This document shows positions 5,165-38,222 of a stretch of DNA of 64,000 nt, one piece after another. The notes below the pieces were generated by a model that had not been told where the DNA came from, did not search any database, and saw nothing but the letters and a program-made list of their open reading frames with translations. Each line of letters starts with the position of its first letter. Within the stretch, counting starts at the first letter, position 1. The position numbers and the translations under genes were made by a program. Source of the DNA: Modestobacter lapidis (GTDB lineage Bacteria; Actinomycetota; Actinomycetes; Mycobacteriales; Geodermatophilaceae); assembly GCA_019779905.1 (NCBI GenBank), contig JABAKE010000001.1, positions 434,001-498,000 on the forward strand. Reading direction: 5' to 3'.

Positions 5165-5181
5165 CCGCAGGACCCCCCGCA

Positions 5182-5237
5182 GCGCTGTGCAGTCAGGGCC
5201 CGTTCCGTGATCGGAACGGGCCCTGACTGCACAGCGC
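5182..5237. terminator. Bidirectional hairpin terminator between nusB and bldD
   Basis: A perfect 25-bp inverted repeat (5182-5206 and 5213-5237) surrounds a 6-base loop, GTGATC. It sits in the 107-bp gap between convergent nusB and bldD and is followed by no T-tract in either direction. By position it should end both transcription units. The exact symmetry over 25 pairs is more than a terminator needs, so it may also belong to a repeat family. Confidence 0.75.
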
Positions 5238-5271
5238 CCCCGGTGGCTCCGACGAGCACCGGGGTCCTTCG

Positions 5272-10051: not shown

Positions 10052-13000
10052 ATGGCCAAGCGCACCGATCTGCAGCACGTGATGGTGATCGGCTCCGGGC
10101 CGATCGTCATCGGGCAGGCCAGCGAGTTCGACTACTCCGGCACCCAGGCCTGCCGGGTGCTCAAGTCCGAGGGCCTGCGGGTCAGCCTGGTCAACAGCAA
10201 CCCCGCGACGATCATGACCGACCCCGAGGTCGCCGACGCCACCTACGTCGAGCCGCTGACCCCCGAGTTCGTCGAGCGGGTCATCGCCGCCGAGCGGCCC
10301 GATGCCCTGCTGGCCACGCTTGGCGGTCAGACGGCGCTGAACATCGCCATCGGCCTGTTCGAGAACGGCGTGCTGGAGAAGTACGGCGTGCAGCTCATCG
10401 GCGCCGACGTCGACGCGATCAACCGGGGCGAGGACCGCCAGGTCTTCAAGGACATCGTCCGCTCCATCGGCGCCGACGCACCCCGCTCCACCGTCTGCTC
10501 CACCGTCGACGAGGCGATCGCGACGGCCGGCGAGGTCGGCTACCCCGTCGTGATCCGGCCCAGCTTCACCATGGGCGGGCAGGGCTCGGGCATCGCCACC
10601 GACGAGGCGATGCTGCGCCGGATGGCCGGCCACGGGCTCAACGACTCCCCGGTGCACACCGTGCTGATCGAGGAGTCGGTGCTGGGCTGGAAGGAGTTCG
10701 AGCTGGAGCTGATGCGCGACCGCAGCGACAACGTGGTGGTCATCTGCTCGATCGAGAACATCGACGCAATGGGGGTGCACACCGGAGACTCGGTGACCGT
10801 CGCCCCGGCGATGACCCTCACCGACCGCGAGTACCAGGAGATGCGCGACGTCGGCATCGCGGTGCTCCGCGCGGTGGGCGTCGAGACCGGCGGCTGCAAC
10901 ATCCAGTTCGCCGTCCACCCGCACACCGGCCGGCTGGTCGTCATCGAGATGAACCCGCGGGTGTCCCGGTCCAGCGCGCTGGCGTCGAAGGCGACCGGCT
11001 TCCCGATCGCCAAGATCGCCGCGAAGCTGGCCATCGGCTACACCCTCGACGAGATCACCAACGACATCACCGGGGTCACCCCGGCCTCGTTCGAGCCGTC
11101 GCTGGACTACGTGGTGGTGAAGATCCCGCGGTTCGCGTTCGAGAAGTTCCCCGGCGCGGACCCGCGGCTGACCACCACGATGAAGAGCGTCGGCGAGGTG
11201 ATGGCCATGGGCCGCAACTTCACCGAGGCGCTGGGCAAGGCGATGCGCTCCACCGAGACGAGCGCCGCCGGCTTCTGGACCGACGGTGCCGGGGACGGGA
11301 ACACGGGCGGGAACGCGGCCGGGCGCACCGCCGACGAGCTGCTGGACCAGTTGCGGGTGCCCGTCGACGGCCGGCTCTACCTCGCCGAGCGTGCGCTGGC
11401 CGCCGGCGCCACGGTCGGGCAGGTCAGCGAGGCCAGCGGATTCGACGAGTGGTTCGTCGACCAGATCGCTCTGGTCCATGAGATCGGCACCGCCGTCCGG
11501 GACGCCCCGTCGCTCACCCCCGAGCTGCTGCGCCGGGCCAAGCGGCACGGGTTGTCCGACCGGCAGGTGGCCGCGCTGCGGCCCGAGCTGGCCGGTGAGG
11601 ACGGCGTCCGCACGCTGCGCTGGCGGCTGGGCATCCGGCCGGTCTACAAGACCGTGGACACCTGCGCCGCCGAGTTCGCCGCCACCACGCCGTACCACTA
11701 CTCCTCCTACGACGAGGAGACCGAGGTACGGCCGCGTACCAGGCCGGCCGTGCTGATCCTCGGCTCGGGTCCGAACCGGATCGGCCAGGGCGTGGAGTTC
11801 GACTACTCCTGCGTGCATGCGGTGATGGCCCTGCAGGACGCCGGCTACGAGGCGGTGATGGTCAACTGCAACCCCGAGACCGTCTCCACCGACTACGACA
11901 TCGCCGACCGGCTGTACTTCGAGCCGCTGACCTTCGAGGACGTCCTCGAGGTGGTGGAGGCCGAGCGCGCGGCCGGCCCGGTGACCGGGGTCATCTGCAC
12001 GCTGGGGGGCCAGACGCCGCTGGCGCTGGCGCAGCGGCTCAAGGACGCCGGCGTGCCGGTGCTGGGCACCTCGCCGGAGGCCATCGACGCCGCCGAGGAC
12101 CGCGGCGCCTTCTCCCGGGTGCTGTCCGACACCGGGCTCACCGCGCCGAAGCACGGCATGGCGACGACGTTCGCCGAGGCCAGGGAGATCGCCGCCACCA
12201 TCGGCTATCCGGTGCTGGTGCGCCCCTCGTACGTGCTCGGCGGGCGCGGCATGGAGATCGTCTACGAGGACGCGACGCTGGAGGCCTACATCACCAAGGC
12301 CACCGACGTCAGCACCGACCACCCGGTGCTGGTCGACCGGTTCCTCGAGGACGCCGTCGAGATCGACGTCGACGCGCTCTACGACGGCACCGAGCTGTTC
12401 CTGGGCGGGGTCATGGAGCACATCGAGGAGGCCGGTGTGCACTCCGGCGACTCGGCGTGCGCGCTGCCGCCGATCACCCTGGGCGTCACCGACGTGGCGG
12501 CGATCCGGGCGGCCACCGAGGCGCTGGCCGTCCGGATCGGCGTGCGCGGGCTGATGAACGTCCAGTACGCGCTCAAGGACGACATCCTGTACGTGCTGGA
12601 GGCCAACCCGCGGGCCAGCCGCACGGTGCCGTTCGTGTCCAAGGCGACCGCCGTCCAGCTGGCCAAGGCGGCGGCCCGGATCGCGGTGGGGGAGACCATC
12701 GCCGACCTGCGGCTGGCCGGGGTGTTGCCCGACGGCGACGGCGCCGACCTTCCGGCGGACGCCCCGATCGCGGTGAAGGAGGCGGTGCTGCCGTTCCACC
12801 GGTTCCGCACCATCGAAGGCCAGGGCGTGGACACCGTGCTGAGCCCGGAGATGAAGTCCACCGGCGAGGTGATGGGCCTGGACACCGAGTTCGGCACCGC
12901 GTTCGCCAAGTCCCAGGCCGCGGCCTACGGCGACCTGCCCACCGGGGGCACGGTGTTCGTGTCGCTGGCCAACCGGGACAAGCGGTCGGCGGTCTTCCCG

Positions 13001-13393
13001 GTCAAGCGGCTGGCCGACCTCGGCTTCTCGGTGCTGGCCACCGCCGGCACCGCCCAGGTGCTGCGCCGCAACGGGGTTGTCTGCGAGGTCGTCGGCAAGT
13101 ACGGCGACGGGCCGGGCAACTGCGTGGAGCGGATCCTGGCCGGCGACGTCGCCATGGTGGTGAACACCCCGTTCGGGGCGCCCGGCAACGGCGGGCCCCG
13201 GCTGGACGGCTACGAGATCCGCACCGCCGCGGTCGCCGCCGGCATTCCCTGCATCACCACCGTGCAGGGCATGGCGGCGGCGGTGCAGGGCGTGGAGGCC
13301 CTCCAGCGCGGGGACATCGGGGTGCGCAGCCTGCAGGACCTGCACGCGTCGCTGGCCGCCTCCCGCGTCGCCACCCGGGCGGCCCGGCCGTGA
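10052..13393 (+). CDS. carB: Carbamoyl-phosphate synthase large chain
   Basis: CarB makes carbamoyl phosphate from bicarbonate, ammonia and two ATP for pyrimidines and arginine. At 1113 residues it contains two homologous ATP-grasp halves; each half opens with an [24 protein letters not shown] motif followed by EFDYS, and each has a GGQT motif. The C-terminal MGS-like allosteric domain starts about residue 960 ([11 protein letters not shown]) and includes the GPGNCVERI region. The ATG is one base after the carA stop. Its 3' end overlaps the GTG of pyrK. Confidence 0.97.
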
Positions 13394-14358
13394 CCGTCCC
13401 CGACGGAGGCCAAAGTCGCGACTTTGGCCCAGAAGGGCCCGACGTCGCGGGCCCGAGTAGGGGCCAAAGTCGCGACTTTGGCCCCCTGCTGACCCGGCCG
13501 GCGCCGCCGGCCCGCTCCGCGCCGGTGCAGCGCACTGCCCGGGTCGCCGCGACCCGGCCGGTCGGGGCCTACGTCGAGCTGGCGCTGGACGCCCCCGACA
13601 TCGCCGCGACCGCGCAGCCGGGGCAGTTCGTCGCCTTCGCCGTCGGCGGGCCCACCTCGGCGATGCTGCTGCGCCGCTCGATCGCGATCGCGGGGGTCGG
13701 CGAGGGCCGGGTCACCGTCGTCGTCGCACCGCACGGGCCCGGCTCGTCCTGGCTGGCCGGGCGCCGGGCCGGCGACGACGTCGACGTGCTGGGCCCGCTC
13801 GGCCGGCCCTTCCCGATGCCGCCGCCCGGCACCCCGGCGTTGCTGGTCGGCGGCGGGTACGGCGCGGCGGCGCTGGTCGGGCTGGCCGCCGAGCTGCGCG
13901 CGGCCGGGTCGAGGGTGGCCGCGGTGTCCGGAGCGGCCACGGCCGGGCGGCTGTGCTCGGTCGATGAGCTCACCGCCCTCGCTGACCCGGTCGTCGTCAC
14001 CACCGACGACGGCAGCGCCGGCCGGCAGGGCCGGGTCACCGACGCCGTCGCCGAGCTGGTGGGCGAGGCCGGCGTCGTCTACGCCTGCGGCCCGATGGGC
14101 ATGCTGCGCGCGGTGGCCGAGGACGCCGGTGCGGCCGGCGTGCCCTCCTACGTGGCCGTGGAGGAGTCGATGGCCTGCGGTATCGGGGTGTGCATGACGT
14201 GCGTGCTGCCGGTGGTCGGCGCCGACGGGTGCACGCGCCTGTCCCGGTCCTGCGTCGAGGGCCCGGTGTTCGGCGGTGATCGCGTGCGGTTCGCCGACGT
14301 CGGCACGCTGACCTGGGACGTCGTCGGCGCCGATGCGATGGGGGTGGGGGCGCCGTGA
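13390..14358 (+). CDS. pyrK: Dihydroorotate dehydrogenase electron-transfer subunit PyrK
   Basis: PyrK passes electrons from the class 1B dihydroorotate dehydrogenase to NAD through FAD and a [2Fe-2S] cluster. The conserved part starts about residue 48 with [17 protein letters not shown], followed by the flavin segment [11 protein letters not shown], the NAD-site [13 protein letters not shown], and the cluster motif [10 protein letters not shown] ending with [10 protein letters not shown]. The GTG at 13390 overlaps the carB stop, but the first 45 residues then contain two copies of GQSRDFG, each encoded by a long palindrome. A later GTG at 13525 would give a normal-length N-terminus but has no ribosome binding site. 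The function is clear; the start is not. Confidence 0.88.
13408..13429. repeat. AAAGTCGCGACTTT palindrome, copy 1
   Basis: A perfect 22-bp palindrome made of GGCCAAAGTCG followed by its reverse complement. It lies just inside the pyrK reading frame and encodes GQSRDFG. It is the shortest of three copies in this operon. The core has no stop codon in any of its six frames. Confidence 0.85.
13460..13485. repeat. AAAGTCGCGACTTT palindrome, copy 2
   Basis: A perfect 26-bp palindrome with the same core as copy 1, extended by GG on the left and CC on the right. It begins 52 bases after copy 1, in the same pyrK reading phase, and again encodes GQSRDFG. Confidence 0.85.
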
Positions 14359-14371
14359 CCGGCTTGGCCGT

Positions 14372-14407
14372 CCCGTGGGGCCAAAGTCGCGACTTTGGCC
14401 CCACGGG
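14372..14407. repeat. AAAGTCGCGACTTT palindrome, copy 3
   Basis: The longest copy, a perfect 36-bp palindrome: CCCGTGGGG, then the shared core, then CCCCACGGG. It fills the space between the pyrK stop and the pyrD ATG at 14418. Its right edge supplies the purine-rich GGGGGA that stands in front of that ATG, so it may affect pyrD translation. Confidence 0.88.
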
Positions 14408-14417
14408 GGACGTCGAC

Positions 14418-15329
14418 ATGTCGACCGCCCTGGGCAGCGCGCCGCTGGTCAGCCCGGTGCTCACCGCTTCGGGTTGCTCGGCCTTCGGTCGCGAGCTCGA
14501 GCCGTTCTTCGACCTGCGCTCCATCGGCGCGGTGGTGACCAAGTCGGTGCAGCTGCGCACCCGGTCCGGGCGGCCGACGCCGCGGATGGCCGAGACCCCC
14601 AGCGGAATGCTCAACTCGATCGGCCTACAGGGGCCGGGGATCGACGGGTTGCTGGCCGAGGACCTGCCCTGGCTGGCCGAGCGCGGCGTGCCGGCGTTCG
14701 TCTCCATCGCCGGCACCCGGGTCGAGGACTTCGCCGAGCTCGCCGCCCGGCTGCGCGGCGTGCCCGGCGTGCTGGGCCTGGAGGTGAACATCTCCTGCCC
14801 GAACGTGGAGAGCCGTGGCGAGGTGTTCGCCTGCGACCCGGTCGCCGCCGCCGACGTGGTCGCCGCGGTGCGGGCCGCGGCCGATCCCGCGCAGCCGGTC
14901 TACGCCAAGCTCAGCCCGGACGTCACCGACATCGTTCCGGTGGCCCGCTCCGTCGCCGCGGCCGGCGCCGACGGCCTGTCGATGATCAACACCCTGCTGG
15001 GGCTGGTCATCGACCCCGACACGATGCGCCCGGTGCTGGGCGGGGTCACCGGTGGCCTGTCCGGGCCGGCGATCCGGCCGGTCGCGCTGCGGTGCGTGTG
15101 GCAGGTGCACCAGGCGCTGCCCGAGGTGCCGATCCTGGGCATGGGCGGCATCCGCACCGGCCTGGACGCGCTGCAGTTCGTGCTGGCCGGCGCCCGCGCG
15201 GTCTCGGTCGGTACGGCGGTGTTCAACGACCCCTCCGCCCCCGCGCGGATCCACGCCGAGCTGGCCGCGGCGCTCGGCGCGCGCGGTTTTCCCTCGCTGC
15301 GCGACGCCGTCGGGTACGCGCACCGATGA
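14418..15329 (+). CDS. pyrD: Dihydroorotate dehydrogenase, class 1B catalytic subunit
   Basis: PyrD oxidises dihydroorotate to orotate with FMN. The 303-residue protein has LTASGCSAFGRELEPF, the active-site loop VNISCPNVESRG with the class 1 catalytic cysteine, AKLSPDVTDI, and the FMN phosphate-binding stretches GGLSGPAIRP and GMGGIRTGLDALQF. With PyrK next door this is the NAD-linked class 1B enzyme, not the membrane quinone-linked class 2 enzyme. The ATG at 14418 has GGGGGA upstream and gives the normal N-terminus. A GTG at 14355 overlapping the pyrK stop would add 21 residues encoded by palindrome copy 3. Confidence 0.92.
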   Translation: MSTALGSAPLVSPVLTASGCSAFGRELEPFFDLRSIGAVVTKSVQLRTRSGRPTPRMAETPSGMLNSIGLQGPGIDGLLAEDLPWLAERGVPAFVSIAGTRVEDFAELAARLRGVPGVLGLEVNISCPNVESRGEVFACDPVAAADVVAAVRAAADPAQPVYAKLSPDVTDIVPVARSVAAAGADGLSMINTLLGLVIDPDTMRPVLGGVTGGLSGPAIRPVALRCVWQVHQALPEVPILGMGGIRTGLDALQFVLAGARAVSVGTAVFNDPSAPARIHAELAAALGARGFPSLRDAVGYAHR

Positions 15330-18052: not shown

Positions 18053-18060
18053 GAGAAGGA

Positions 18061-18111
18061 CCCCTCTGCCCCCCACGCCTCGCGAGCTCGGCGCGGGACC
18101 CTGCAGAGGGG
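18061..18111. terminator. Terminator hairpin repeat, copy 1 (after rpoZ)
   Basis: Outer arms CCCCTCTGC (18061-18069) and GCAGAGGGG (18103-18111) enclose a GC-rich inner stem around TCGCGAGCTC. The leading AAGGA and the whole element recur almost base for base after metK and, with paired changes, after hisE. Position directly after rpoZ suggests transcription termination. No T-run follows. Confidence 0.75.
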
Positions 18112-18159
18112 CCGACGGCTGGTGGCGTTGCCACCGGCTGTCCCGCCCGTTGTGATGAC

Positions 18160-20833: not shown

Positions 20834-20840
20834 GGAAGGA

Positions 20841-20891
20841 CCCCTCTGCCCCCCACGCCTCGCGAGCTCGGCGCGGGCCCCTGCAGAGGGG
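20841..20891. terminator. Terminator hairpin repeat, copy 2 (after metK)
   Basis: The same element as after rpoZ, preceded by GAGGAAGGA. It differs at one inner position (GGGCCC here, GGGACC there). Outer arms are CCCCTCTGC (20841-20849) and GCAGAGGGG (20883-20891). It separates metK from priA. Confidence 0.75.
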
Positions 20892-20928
20892 CCGTTCCAC
20901 GCGATAGCAACGACGGACTGGAGCGTTG

Positions 20929-31858: not shown

Positions 31859-31871
31859 AAAAGTAGAAGGA

Positions 31872-31923
31872 CCCCGCTGCCCCCCACCGCTCGCGAGCTC
31901 GCGGCGGGGCCCCTGCAGCGGGG
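31872..31923. terminator. Terminator hairpin repeat, copy 3 (after hisE)
   Basis: Outer arms CCCCGCTGC (31872-31880) and GCAGCGGGG (31915-31923) match the rpoZ and metK copies except that a T-A pair is now a G-C pair in both arms. The inner stem is also re-paired as CCGC with GCGG around the same TCGCGAGCTC. It lies between hisE and hisG, so part of the message may end here. Confidence 0.78.
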
Positions 31924-31956
31924 CCATAGCCGCCCGTCACCCGAAGGAGCAACAAC

Positions 31957-32820: not shown

Positions 32821-32824
32821 GGAA

Positions 32825-32879
32825 GGCCCCGATGCCCCCCACCACGCGCAGGTTCGCGGTGGGGCGCCGCAACGGGGCC
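32825..32879. terminator. Terminator hairpin repeat, divergent copy 4 (after hisG)
   Basis: Arms GGCCCCG (32825-32831) and CGGGGCC (32873-32879) enclose an inner stem CCCCACC (32837-32843) to GGTGGGG (32858-32864). It follows hisG by four bases and starts GGAAGG like the others, so I place it in the same family although the loop differs. The first ATG of the next gene lies inside it. Confidence 0.6.
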
Positions 32880-33290
32880 ATCGTGGGACTGCTGCTCCTG
32901 CCGTTGGCCGTGCTGGCCGGCTGCGCGTCGGGCAGCACGGCCGGCGGGGTCCCCGCCGGCACCGACCGGCCGGAGAACGACCTGGTGGTCGAGATCGACC
33001 GCGGCGCCGGCAGCCCGGTGGAGCGGTACACGCTGACCTGCGCCGGGCCCGGCGAGGGCGACCTGCCCGACGCCGCGGCGGCCTGCACGCACCTGCAGCG
33101 GATGTCCGAGCCCTTCGCGCCGCTGCCGGCCGACGTGATGTGCAGCCAGCAGTACGGCGGCCCGCAGACCGCCCGGGTCACCGGCCGGTGGGGCGGGGAG
33201 CCGGTGGACCTGACGCTGTCGCGCACCGACGGGTGCCGGATCTCCCAGTGGGATGCGCTGGGCCCGCTGCTCCCCGGGCCGGTCGGGTAG
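32832..33290 (+). CDS. Small putative lipoprotein
   Basis: A 152-residue exported protein. The N-terminus has basic residues (TTRRFAVGRRN), a hydrophobic run and the lipobox LAGC, so the mature protein would start at that cysteine near residue 33. The rest (VEIDRGAGSPVERYTLTCAG, CTHLQRMSEPFAPLPADVMCSQQYGGPQTARVTGRWGG) resembles the subtilisin-inhibitor-like/SSI-type fold of small actinobacterial proteins with paired cysteines, but I would not name it an inhibitor. The ATG at 32832 sits inside the hisG terminator; a GTG at 32883 would still leave a short signal peptide. Confidence 0.75.
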   Translation: MPPTTRRFAVGRRNGAIVGLLLLPLAVLAGCASGSTAGGVPAGTDRPENDLVVEIDRGAGSPVERYTLTCAGPGEGDLPDAAAACTHLQRMSEPFAPLPADVMCSQQYGGPQTARVTGRWGGEPVDLTLSRTDGCRISQWDALGPLLPGPVG

Positions 33291-36704: not shown

Positions 36705-38222
36705 ATGACGTTCGGGTGGAAGCTCTACGGGGACGGCAGCACGCCGCCGCTGGGCGAGGCCGTCGCCCCCGACGAACGGCTGTCCTGGCCGCGCACCGTC
36801 GGCATCGGTGCCCAGCACGTGGTGGCGATGTTCGGGGCGACCTTCGTCTTCCCGCTGATCATGGGGCTGGACGCCAACCTGGCGATCATGATGAGCGGGA
36901 TCGCCACGATCCTGTTCCTGCTGATCGTCAAGGGGCAGGTGCCGAGCTACCTGGGCACGTCCGCGGCCTTCGTCGGCGGGGTGCTGGCGGTCCGCGCCGC
37001 CGGCGGGGACGACAGTGACGTCGTCGGCGCGATCCTGGTGTCCGGTGTCGTGCTGGCCGTGGTCGGCGCGCTGATCCACGTGCTGGGGCCCCGGGTGGTC
37101 AACGCCGTCCTGCCCCCGGCGGTCACCGGCGCGGTCATCATCATCATCGGGTTCAACCTCGCGCCGGTGGTGGCCAACACCTACTGGCCGCAGGACCAGT
37201 GGGTCGGCCTGGCCACCATGGTCTTCGTCATCGTCGCCTCCCTCCTGCTGCGCGGCTTCTGGGCCCGCGTCTCGATCCTGCTCGGCCTGGTCTTCGGCTA
37301 CCTGCTGTCGCTCCTGCTCGACGTCCTGGCCGGGCCGATCACCTCACCCGACGGCACCGGCGCGGTCGTCACCCGGGACCGGATCGACTTCGGCGCGGTC
37401 GCCCAGGCCGACTGGGTGGGCCTGCCGGAACTCACCTTCCCCTCGTTCTCGGTGAACTACTCGCTGCTGGTGCTGCCCGCCGTCATCGCGCTGGTCGCGG
37501 AGAACGCCGGGCACGTCAAGGCGGTCGCGGCGATGACGAAGCGGGACCTCGACCCGGTCATGGGCCGCGCGATCTTCGCCGACGGGGTCGGCACCGTGGT
37601 CGCCACGGCTGTCGGGGGCTCGCCGACCACCACCTACGCGGAGAACATCGGCGTCATGGCCGCCACCCGGGTCTACTCCACCGCGGCCTACTACGTCGCC
37701 GCGATCGTCGCGATCCTGCTCGGGCTGTGCCCGAAGTTCGGCGCGTTGATCAACATCATTCCAGGCGGGGTGCTCGGGGGCATCACGGTGATCCTCTACG
37801 GGATGATCGGCCTGCTCGGCGCGAAGATCTGGAAGGAGAACCGGGTCGACTTCGCCAACCCGATCAACCTGGTGCCGCTGGCCGCCGGGATCATCATCGG
37901 CATCGGCAACGTCAACCTGGTGTTCACGGACGAGTACTCACTCGGCGGCATCGCGCTGGGCTCGATCGTCGCGGTCGCCGGGTGGCACCTGGCCAAGGTG
38001 CTCGCACCGGCGGACATGCAGGCCGCGCTCAGCGCCGAGAGCGGCTTCGATGCCGGCACCGGCCCGGCCCTGGACGCCACCGGTGGTCACCGGGTCGATG
38101 GCGGTGGTCACCGGGTCGATGGCGGTGGTCACCGGGTCGACGGCGGTGGTCACCGGGTCGACGGCGGTGACCCGGGCAGCGCCGATCCCTCCGACGTCGA
38201 CCGCGGCGCCCAGCGGTCCTGA
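36705..38222 (+). CDS. NCS2 uracil/xanthine permease
   Basis: A 505-residue nucleobase transporter of the UraA branch of NCS2, acting in the inner membrane with proton symport. About 12 hydrophobic segments are seen from residue 30 to 445. Family landmarks are the TM3 region PSYLGTSAAF, VAENAGHVKAVAA and SPTTTYAENIGVMAATRVYS. The ATG has GAGGAGG seven bases upstream. After residue 455 the protein ends in four copies of GGHRVDG, encoded by a tandem DNA repeat and not a family feature. The regulator gene upstream is 129 bases away. Confidence 0.9.
   Translation: MTFGWKLYGDGSTPPLGEAVAPDERLSWPRTVGIGAQHVVAMFGATFVFPLIMGLDANLAIMMSGIATILFLLIVKGQVPSYLGTSAAFVGGVLAVRAAGGDDSDVVGAILVSGVVLAVVGALIHVLGPRVVNAVLPPAVTGAVIIIIGFNLAPVVANTYWPQDQWVGLATMVFVIVASLLLRGFWARVSILLGLVFGYLLSLLLDVLAGPITSPDGTGAVVTRDRIDFGAVAQADWVGLPELTFPSFSVNYSLLVLPAVIALVAENAGHVKAVAAMTKRDLDPVMGRAIFADGVGTVVATAVGGSPTTTYAENIGVMAATRVYSTAAYYVAAIVAILLGLCPKFGALINIIPGGVLGGITVILYGMIGLLGAKIWKENRVDFANPINLVPLAAGIIIGIGNVNLVFTDEYSLGGIALGSIVAVAGWHLAKVLAPADMQAALSAESGFDAGTGPALDATGGHRVDGGGHRVDGGGHRVDGGGHRVDGGDPGSADPSDVDRGAQRS
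38082..38165 (+). repeat. Four 21-bp tandem repeats in the permease tail
   Basis: GGTGGTCACCGGGTCGATGGC and close copies are repeated four times without gaps at 38082, 38103, 38124 and 38145; the last two have GAC for GAT. A degenerate fifth unit begins at 38166. Because 21 is a multiple of three, copy number can change without shifting the frame. Confidence 0.9.

Follow-up and report, generated by a model that had tools for sequence, protein, structure and literature searches.

The window, by which we mean the whole 64,000-nt stretch of DNA analysed, carries a pyr operon in which carB, a pyrK-type reading frame and pyrD follow one another closely. Overlapping GTGA motifs lie at 13390-13393, where carB ends and the pyrK frame starts, and at 14355-14358, where the pyrK frame ends and the pyrD frame starts. 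The 22-mer GGCCAAAGTCGCGACTTTGGCC occurs exactly at 13408-13429, 13462-13483 and 14379-14400; the first palindrome begins 14 nt past the carB stop. Perfect pairing extends past the 22-mer by 0, 2 and 7 bp, respectively, giving palindromes of 22, 26 and 36 bp. An earlier note on this DNA had described three perfect palindromes of these lengths at the carB-pyrK and pyrK-pyrD junctions, and both the coordinates and the arm extension bear it out. The features are as follows.

10052-13393, + strand: carB (putative, name from an earlier reading); its TGA stop overlaps the pyrK GTG
13390-14358, + strand: pyrK-type reading frame with DHODB_Fe-S_bind; the doublet is codons 7-32 if GTG 13390 is the start
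13408-13429, no strand assigned: family A palindrome, doublet copy 1, 22 bp, perfect
13430-13461, no strand assigned: doublet spacer, 32 bp, holding an inverted repeat of its own, CGGGCCCG ... CGGGCCCG
13460-13485, no strand assigned: family A palindrome, doublet copy 2, 26 bp, perfect, 54 bp from copy 1
14355-15329, + strand: pyrD, DHO_dh at residues 31-307; the third 22-bp core is codons 9-16 if GTG 14355 is the start
14372-14407, no strand assigned: family A palindrome, singlet, 36 bp, perfect, arms extended by 7 bp

We found that all three copies encode GQSRDFG in the frames opened by GTG 13390 (PyrK) and GTG 14355 (PyrD), in agreement with the phase given in the earlier note. That note had also noted the absence of stops from all six frames of the core and concluded that it can insert harmlessly into coding DNA. 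The family A core is indeed free of stops in every frame, but so are 59% of palindromes built from a shuffled half, and the property is therefore unremarkable by itself; for all five families described below, the product of the shuffle fractions is about 0.06. The 14-mer core has three matches in the window at up to two mismatches, whereas dinucleotide shuffles gave a mean of 0.01 and reached three or more in 0 of 100 cases. At gathering thresholds, Rfam had no match in the window.

Strong PyrD matches were found in 11 of the 23 genomes searched, and in all 11 an ATGA or GTGA start lies in frame with a conserved Val-Asp/Glu-Met motif. This in-frame pyrD start overlaps the pyrK end in the junction alignment, and the distance from it to the conserved motif is 24, 27, 51, 54, 57, 60, 60, 63, 69, 78 or 81 nt (10 different lengths). 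Because the frame is kept across so many tail lengths, these data suggest that the variable PyrD N-tail is translated. A pyrD start at ATG 14419, which would leave the third palindrome intergenic, was dropped after this frame test. Thus, so far as open frames tell, the copies appear to extend proteins in frame, as the earlier note had proposed. The PyrD of one relative (G012) is 95% identical to that of the source genome, and its junction is 36 nt shorter. G012 and G014 are incomplete assemblies whose cob sequences are nearly identical and whose pyrD sequences nevertheless differ in their match to the source genome; the empty pyrK-pyrD site of G012 may therefore stem from another strain. The two-subunit PyrD/PyrK dihydroorotate dehydrogenase (13390-15329) is itself patchy in the genus, given the 11 strong matches among 23 genomes.

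The window holds further repeats. An intergenic repeat of 60 nt, GAAGGACCCC...GGGGCC, lies at 18055-18114, 20835-20894, 31866-31925 and 32821-32880 (67-98% alike); it begins at most 8 nt past predicted gene ends and looks like a separate shared family of terminator-type hairpins. At 5173-5246, between convergent predicted genes, is an inverted repeat with 35-nt arms (89% complementary) and a 4-nt loop, which is probably an ordinary terminator. A 21-bp tandem repeat, CGGTGGTCACCGGGTCGATGG, occupies 38060-38185, near the 3' end of the predicted gene at 36705-38222.

Palindrome families and their distribution

The source genome (G000; relatives are labelled G001 onward) is a 4.78-Mb draft in 383 contigs. 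The earlier note's call for a count in the genome and its relatives gave a result far from the random level: the 14-mer occurs exactly 14 times in the source genome, against 0 for the reversed control, and all 14 copies are flanked by GGCC, each within the full 22-mer. The looser scaffold GGCCNNNNTCGCGANNNNGGCC (GGCC-N4-TCGCGA-N4-GGCC) has 31 copies there and 0 in the control. Some in-gene scaffold matches look like coding coincidence; at one of them (C338:267670), four mapped relatives carry ordinary coding sequence of similar length. The exact 14-mer is present in 8 of the 23 genus genomes (1 to 14 copies). The scaffold reaches 40 copies in two genomes of the genus, and other genera of the bacterial family have few copies of it (0 to 5, where the control has 0 to 2). 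In a one-genome-per-species collection (84,980 species), 34 stretches carry the exact 22-mer, all of them in Modestobacter records.

The palindromes fall into at least five families of 18-22 bp:

Family A: GGCCAAAGTCGCGACTTTGGCC
Family B: CACCAAAATGGCCATTTTGGTG
Family C: GGCAGAAATGGCCATTTCTGCC
Family D: GGTTTCGGCGCCGAAACC
Family E: GGCCATGTTGGCCAACATGGCC

The core common to B and C, AAATGGCCATTT, reaches 42 copies per genome, while its control has none in any of 112 genomes of the bacterial family, which we take to be Geodermatophilaceae from the placement of Modestobacter. It is present in 38 of these 112 genomes and in 5 of 12 genera, in a patchy manner. Outside the bacterial family it was found as a single copy in 2 of 210 order genomes, and the control as a single copy in 3.

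We also carried out an unbiased scan of large blocks, which scored, for each 6-bp palindromic centre, how often at least seven of the eight pairs that follow are matched. The leading centres were TCGCGA and TGGCCA, both in the source genome (4/94, expected 0.3, and 5/209, expected 0.8) and in G017 (8/110, expected 0.4, and 4/221, expected 0.7). In G005, TGGCCA reached 11/192 (expected 0.6), and in G004 GGCGCC leads with a modest excess (6/585 versus an expected 1.8). Similarly, AT-weighted palindrome scores of at least 20 numbered 3 to 10 per block in five blocks of at least 164 kb; Markov shuffles gave 0 to 1, and some of the peaks in the blocks are ordinary long hairpins. By raw count, perfect palindromes with arms of 9-10 are barely more numerous than in Markov shuffles; arm-11 palindromes exceed the shuffles in G000, G017 and G005, and the 300-kb block of G004 has no excess of perfect 22-bp palindromes (1 versus 0, 1 and 1). 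From the window shuffles, the control counts, and the centre and AT-weighted scans, we conclude that chance is ruled out as the origin.

Further long repeated palindromes came to light in these genomes, namely GTCGAGCTCTGCCCCC...GGGGGCAGAGCTCGAC variants in G004 (L220, L221, L224) and CTGTCCCCCTGCACCA...TGGTGCAGGGGGACAG variants in G005 (L207, L216) and G017 (L201). In a literature search the 14-mer appeared in no paper, and among the papers listed for Modestobacter, Blastococcus and Geodermatophilaceae none, judged by title or the start of the abstract, describes such elements.

Genomic placement and doublets

We collected 142 elements, kept the 121 that lie within four mismatches of A, B or C, and placed the 56 of these that fall in six syntenic blocks. 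Genes were predicted by our own codon-usage script, which draws pyrK and pyrD short, and junction copies are thus counted as intergenic although possibly translated. The earlier note had missed how the elements are placed: 37 of the 56 are intergenic (null 12.2%) and 19 lie inside predicted genes. Tandem genes flank 27 of the 37 intergenic elements and convergent genes 10; divergent genes flank none, where the null is about 30% of intergenic placements. Moreover, a stop codon precedes 28 of the 37 by no more than 20 nt (null 14.6%; p 1e-16, a value overstated because orthologous sites are counted more than once). The 32 copies read in the source genome are distributed likewise, with 9 in genes and 23 intergenic; of the latter, 19 follow a stop by at most 20 nt and 1 is flanked by divergent genes. 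Some junction copies, the pyr ones among them, probably form the translated N-tail of the gene that follows.

Where in-gene copies recur in different species, they are located in linkers or tails. One such site is in a precorrin-3B-synthase-like protein (Pfam NIR_SIR_ferr), presumably CobG. In a Mg-chelatase-like protein the elements lie near residues 359-400, in the linker that joins the AAA-lid (261-328) to the VWA domain (518-624), and in a circularly permuted ATP-grasp protein, whose domain ends at 452, they lie from about residue 525 in the C-tail. In PyrD, the chelatase and the ATP-grasp protein, the elements thus lie outside the Pfam domains. All nine copies read at the precorrin-3B-synthase-like and chelatase sites use the GQSRDFG or HQNGHFG frame. 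The ATP-grasp tail mostly uses the AKVATLA or AEMAISA frame, and one N-tail uses AKVAILA. In the chelatase linker slot (site 9), G004 carries a tandem pair of CGCAGGTAAAGGAACC where other species hold a palindrome.

Recurrent pairing at 52-55 bp had likewise been overlooked. In the 121-element set, the neighbour distances below 100 bp are 30, 33, 33, 34, 35, 45, 52, 53, 54 (five times) and 55, so that 8 of 14 fall at 52-55 bp. The AAATGGCCATTT core forms an additional pair 50 bp apart in the source genome, and pairs of it spaced 53 or 54 bp were also found in two further genera (G046, G038); the exact 54-bp B/C doublet was found in 3 of 298 genomes order-wide, all three in the genus. Doublet spacers mostly differ in sequence and often contain a small inverted repeat; by eye, the C-family spacers of G005, G016 and G018 share sequence around CCGTCAC or close variants. 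We found that 10 of 11 doublets fold as a single long hairpin, a result that is partly trivial because two copies of one palindrome always pair. In families A, B and C alike, the palindrome is flanked on either side, 5-10 nt away, by a track that is G-rich when read outward.

The spacing classes of 30-35 and 52-55 bp differ by about two helical turns, and the family D pair in G004 is 24 bp apart. GACG stands at outward offset 15 in 12 of 121 copies, above composition, which may partly reflect orthologous copies.

Turnover at orthologous sites

The pyr junctions of relatives differ in what they hold. At the carB-pyrK junction, G008 has GGGCCATGTTGGCCAACATGGCCC and G001 a similar imperfect palindrome; at the pyrK-pyrD junction, GGTTTCGGCGCCGAAACC is present twice in G004 and once in G007, and CTCTCGGCGCCGAGAG once in G003. 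The remaining readable pyr junctions have no palindrome or only weak imperfect ones. The copies are thus not unique to these junctions and conserved in all relatives, and their number is not at the random level, so that neither outcome that the earlier note had set against its idea of a mobile family came about.

Two cobalamin-cluster sites, read in 20 and 21 relatives, hold A, B, E, another palindrome or none, depending on the species (site 1 was not found in G012, and what G003 holds at the second site is only a truncated half, classed as E). Of 22 genomes, 6 lack an insert at the second site and the other 16 carry one of 24-65 nt, with the lengths for 5 of the 22 measured from the site reading, the length pattern having missed them. 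On a tree of 22 genomes (2,404 neighbouring columns), states assigned by eye (A, B, E, other or empty) need 10 changes at site 1 and 11 at site 2. Shuffled labels at site 2 needed a mean of 13.1 changes, and as few as 11 in 13 of 200 shuffles; the 11 changes needed thus indicate weak clustering by descent. Sister genomes differ at this site (A in G019 and B in G002; E in G006 and empty in G015), as do the members of a three-genome clade (B in G016, A in G017 and G018). Among the sites listed in the six-block comparison, family differs between species at sites 6-10, 35 and 39, and at site 35 the doublets are of family A in G017 and of family C in G005. The earlier note was thus right about the palindrome it saw and missed that it is one of several families replacing each other at a single site.

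By eye, several families share similar flanks at the second cob site. From this likeness, it seems that an old insert there had its core exchanged.

Interpretation and likeness to known systems

The elements could serve the host as hairpins. At the 23 junction copies, outer stems formed with their own flanks fold at -37.3 kcal/mol versus -33.5 kcal/mol for permuted flanks (sd 0.79; matched in 0 of 20000 permutations), whereas at the 9 in-gene copies a copy's own flanks are not better than permuted ones (p 0.41). These better-pairing junction stems suggest selection for a hairpin, and hence a host function at those places; selection on the outer stem at 3' ends is plausible, and the palindromes may have a 3'-hairpin role. 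Core mismatches, in contrast, give no sign of selection at the RNA level: G-U and A-C in the sense RNA stand at 39:31 (p 0.40) among the 113 of 142 elements with a defined sense strand, some chance coding matches included. None of 92 sense-oriented copies had a T-run 3' of the hairpin. With both the G-U bias and the T-run absent, the core does not resemble an RNA terminator, and simple terminators were rejected on the same two grounds. The broader reading, that the host uses the palindromes as 3'-end RNA hairpins (terminators or mRNA stabilisers) whose sequence is shared by common ancestry, with in-gene copies as by-products, draws on the flank result, on the 28 of 37 intergenic elements close behind a stop and the 10 convergent against 0 divergent placements (1 of 23 divergent in the source genome), and on palindrome-less relatives that sometimes hold another long inverted repeat (by eye, at sites 4, 8 and 10). 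Given the missing T-runs and the unbiased core, together with the 19 of 56 elements that lie in genes and others at overlapping operon junctions expected to be read through, we regard it as rather unlikely.

Perfect symmetry, and a doublet spacing of 52-55 bp that approximates five helical turns, would also fit operators or nucleoid-protein sites for a dimeric protein. However, divergent placement is 0 of 37 in the blocks and 1 of 23 in the source genome, and one sequence-specific protein fails as an explanation because several families coexist in a genome and swap at single sites; of the readings weighed here we hold this one to be the most improbable. Old inverted repeats kept palindromic by template switching during replication (quasi-palindrome correction), with no mobile element involved, would account for arms that match without RNA-strand bias and for the second cob site, where the flanks are alike while the core changes. 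Such correction leaves unexplained why the same 22-mers occur at many unrelated sites and why clean empty sites exist, and we think it improbable.

We consider that Modestobacter and its bacterial family probably harbour a group of short interspersed palindromes working in the manner of REP/REPIN and Rickettsia palindromic elements. The singlet form would be a perfect palindrome of about 22 bp with an AT-richer core, often within a C-rich/G-rich outer stem, and a doublet would be two palindromes, mostly spaced 52-55 bp, that can form a single long hairpin. The elements would spread by copying via a hairpin or cruciform intermediate handled by a protein other than a Y1 transposase, purifying selection would leave them at 3' ends and in disordered tails, and in an occupied slot another family could overwrite the core. 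Within the pyr operon, PyrK would gain about 29 residues before Leu-Leu-Thr relative to G004, and PyrD 12 N-tail residues relative to G012, extensions that are probably without large effect.

The mobile palindromic element proposed in the earlier note stands in that copies are dispersed, restricted to a lineage, variably present and matched by clean empty sites; movement itself we infer. Against it, a mover was not identified, target duplication was not established and excision was not seen. The Y1 (RAYT) transposase, PF01797, which was the only transposase class searched for, was found in none of the 23 genomes of the genus (completeness is 90% or more, and contamination 5% or less, in 18) by a search that detects it in 5 of 14 control genomes; REPs driven by RAYT are thus rejected. 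Furthermore, several slots look old, with the core replaced in conserved flanks, a pattern not foreseen by simple insertion, and one well-resolved slot shows apparent in-place core replacement rather than a fresh insertion. A bolder version of the preferred reading, which we find conceivable but put forward only tentatively, is a transposase-independent or novel-enzyme system in which hairpin palindromes overwrite one another in fixed slots, protein genes included, with both halves of a doublet changing family and position, frame and spacing being roughly kept. If so, short encoded tails would be rewritten in frame between sister species.

The likeness to REP and REPIN elements is extensive. 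As described in the portions of the sources consulted, REP/REPINs are palindromes of 20-40 bp in many copies, located between tandem or convergent genes, downstream of coding regions and sometimes in genes (PMC3116915, PMC3733652), and REPIN doublets have characteristic distances and form one hairpin whose spacer conserves length and pairing, not sequence (PMC3116915, PMC3733652). The Modestobacter elements are likewise many-copy short palindromes behind genes, with doublets of preferred spacing able to form one hairpin. In the recB gene of two Xanthomonas species, the same partial account places different REPs at about one site (PMC3733652), a precedent for one site with different repeats. 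In contrast to the REPs of these excerpts, the Modestobacter unit is a full perfect palindrome, its core lacks a G-U excess where the REP source stresses GT pairing, and many sites change family within one genus. The GTAG/CGTC end tag of REPs is likewise absent: per offset, GTAG occurs in at most 1 and CGTC in at most 5 of 121 copies.

Rickettsia palindromic elements (RPEs) are described as palindromic repeats that form in-frame fusions with unrelated metabolic genes, with several families per genome (PMC10969869, PMC3733652). Judging from open frames and element-free relatives, the Modestobacter elements likewise appear to insert in frame in protein genes. RPEs so described are about 150 bp long with a conserved peptide, whereas the Modestobacter elements are about 22-80 bp, encode a peptide that varies by family and frame, lie mostly behind stop codons and belong to Actinobacteria. 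MITEs, in the part of the literature consulted, are also short inverted-repeat elements with presence/absence variation (PMC10969869); unlike for MITEs so described, neither target duplication (few sites viewed by eye) nor a cognate transposase (Y1 being the class searched for) is established for the Modestobacter elements. Intrinsic terminators share a GC-rich hairpin just behind stops, also between convergent genes, and differ from the Modestobacter copies, which have no T-run, lie in many cases in genes or overlapping junctions, and repeat an exact core.

REP repeats are linked to RAYT; here a REPIN-like architecture occurs in a genus of Actinobacteria in which Y1 was not detected, and its elements turn over between sister species and appear to alter protein tails in frame. 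What these elements add to the known REP and RPE systems is repeated replacement between families at many sites in one genus, and close strains thus offer a natural system for direct testing of the mover and of in-place palindrome replacement.
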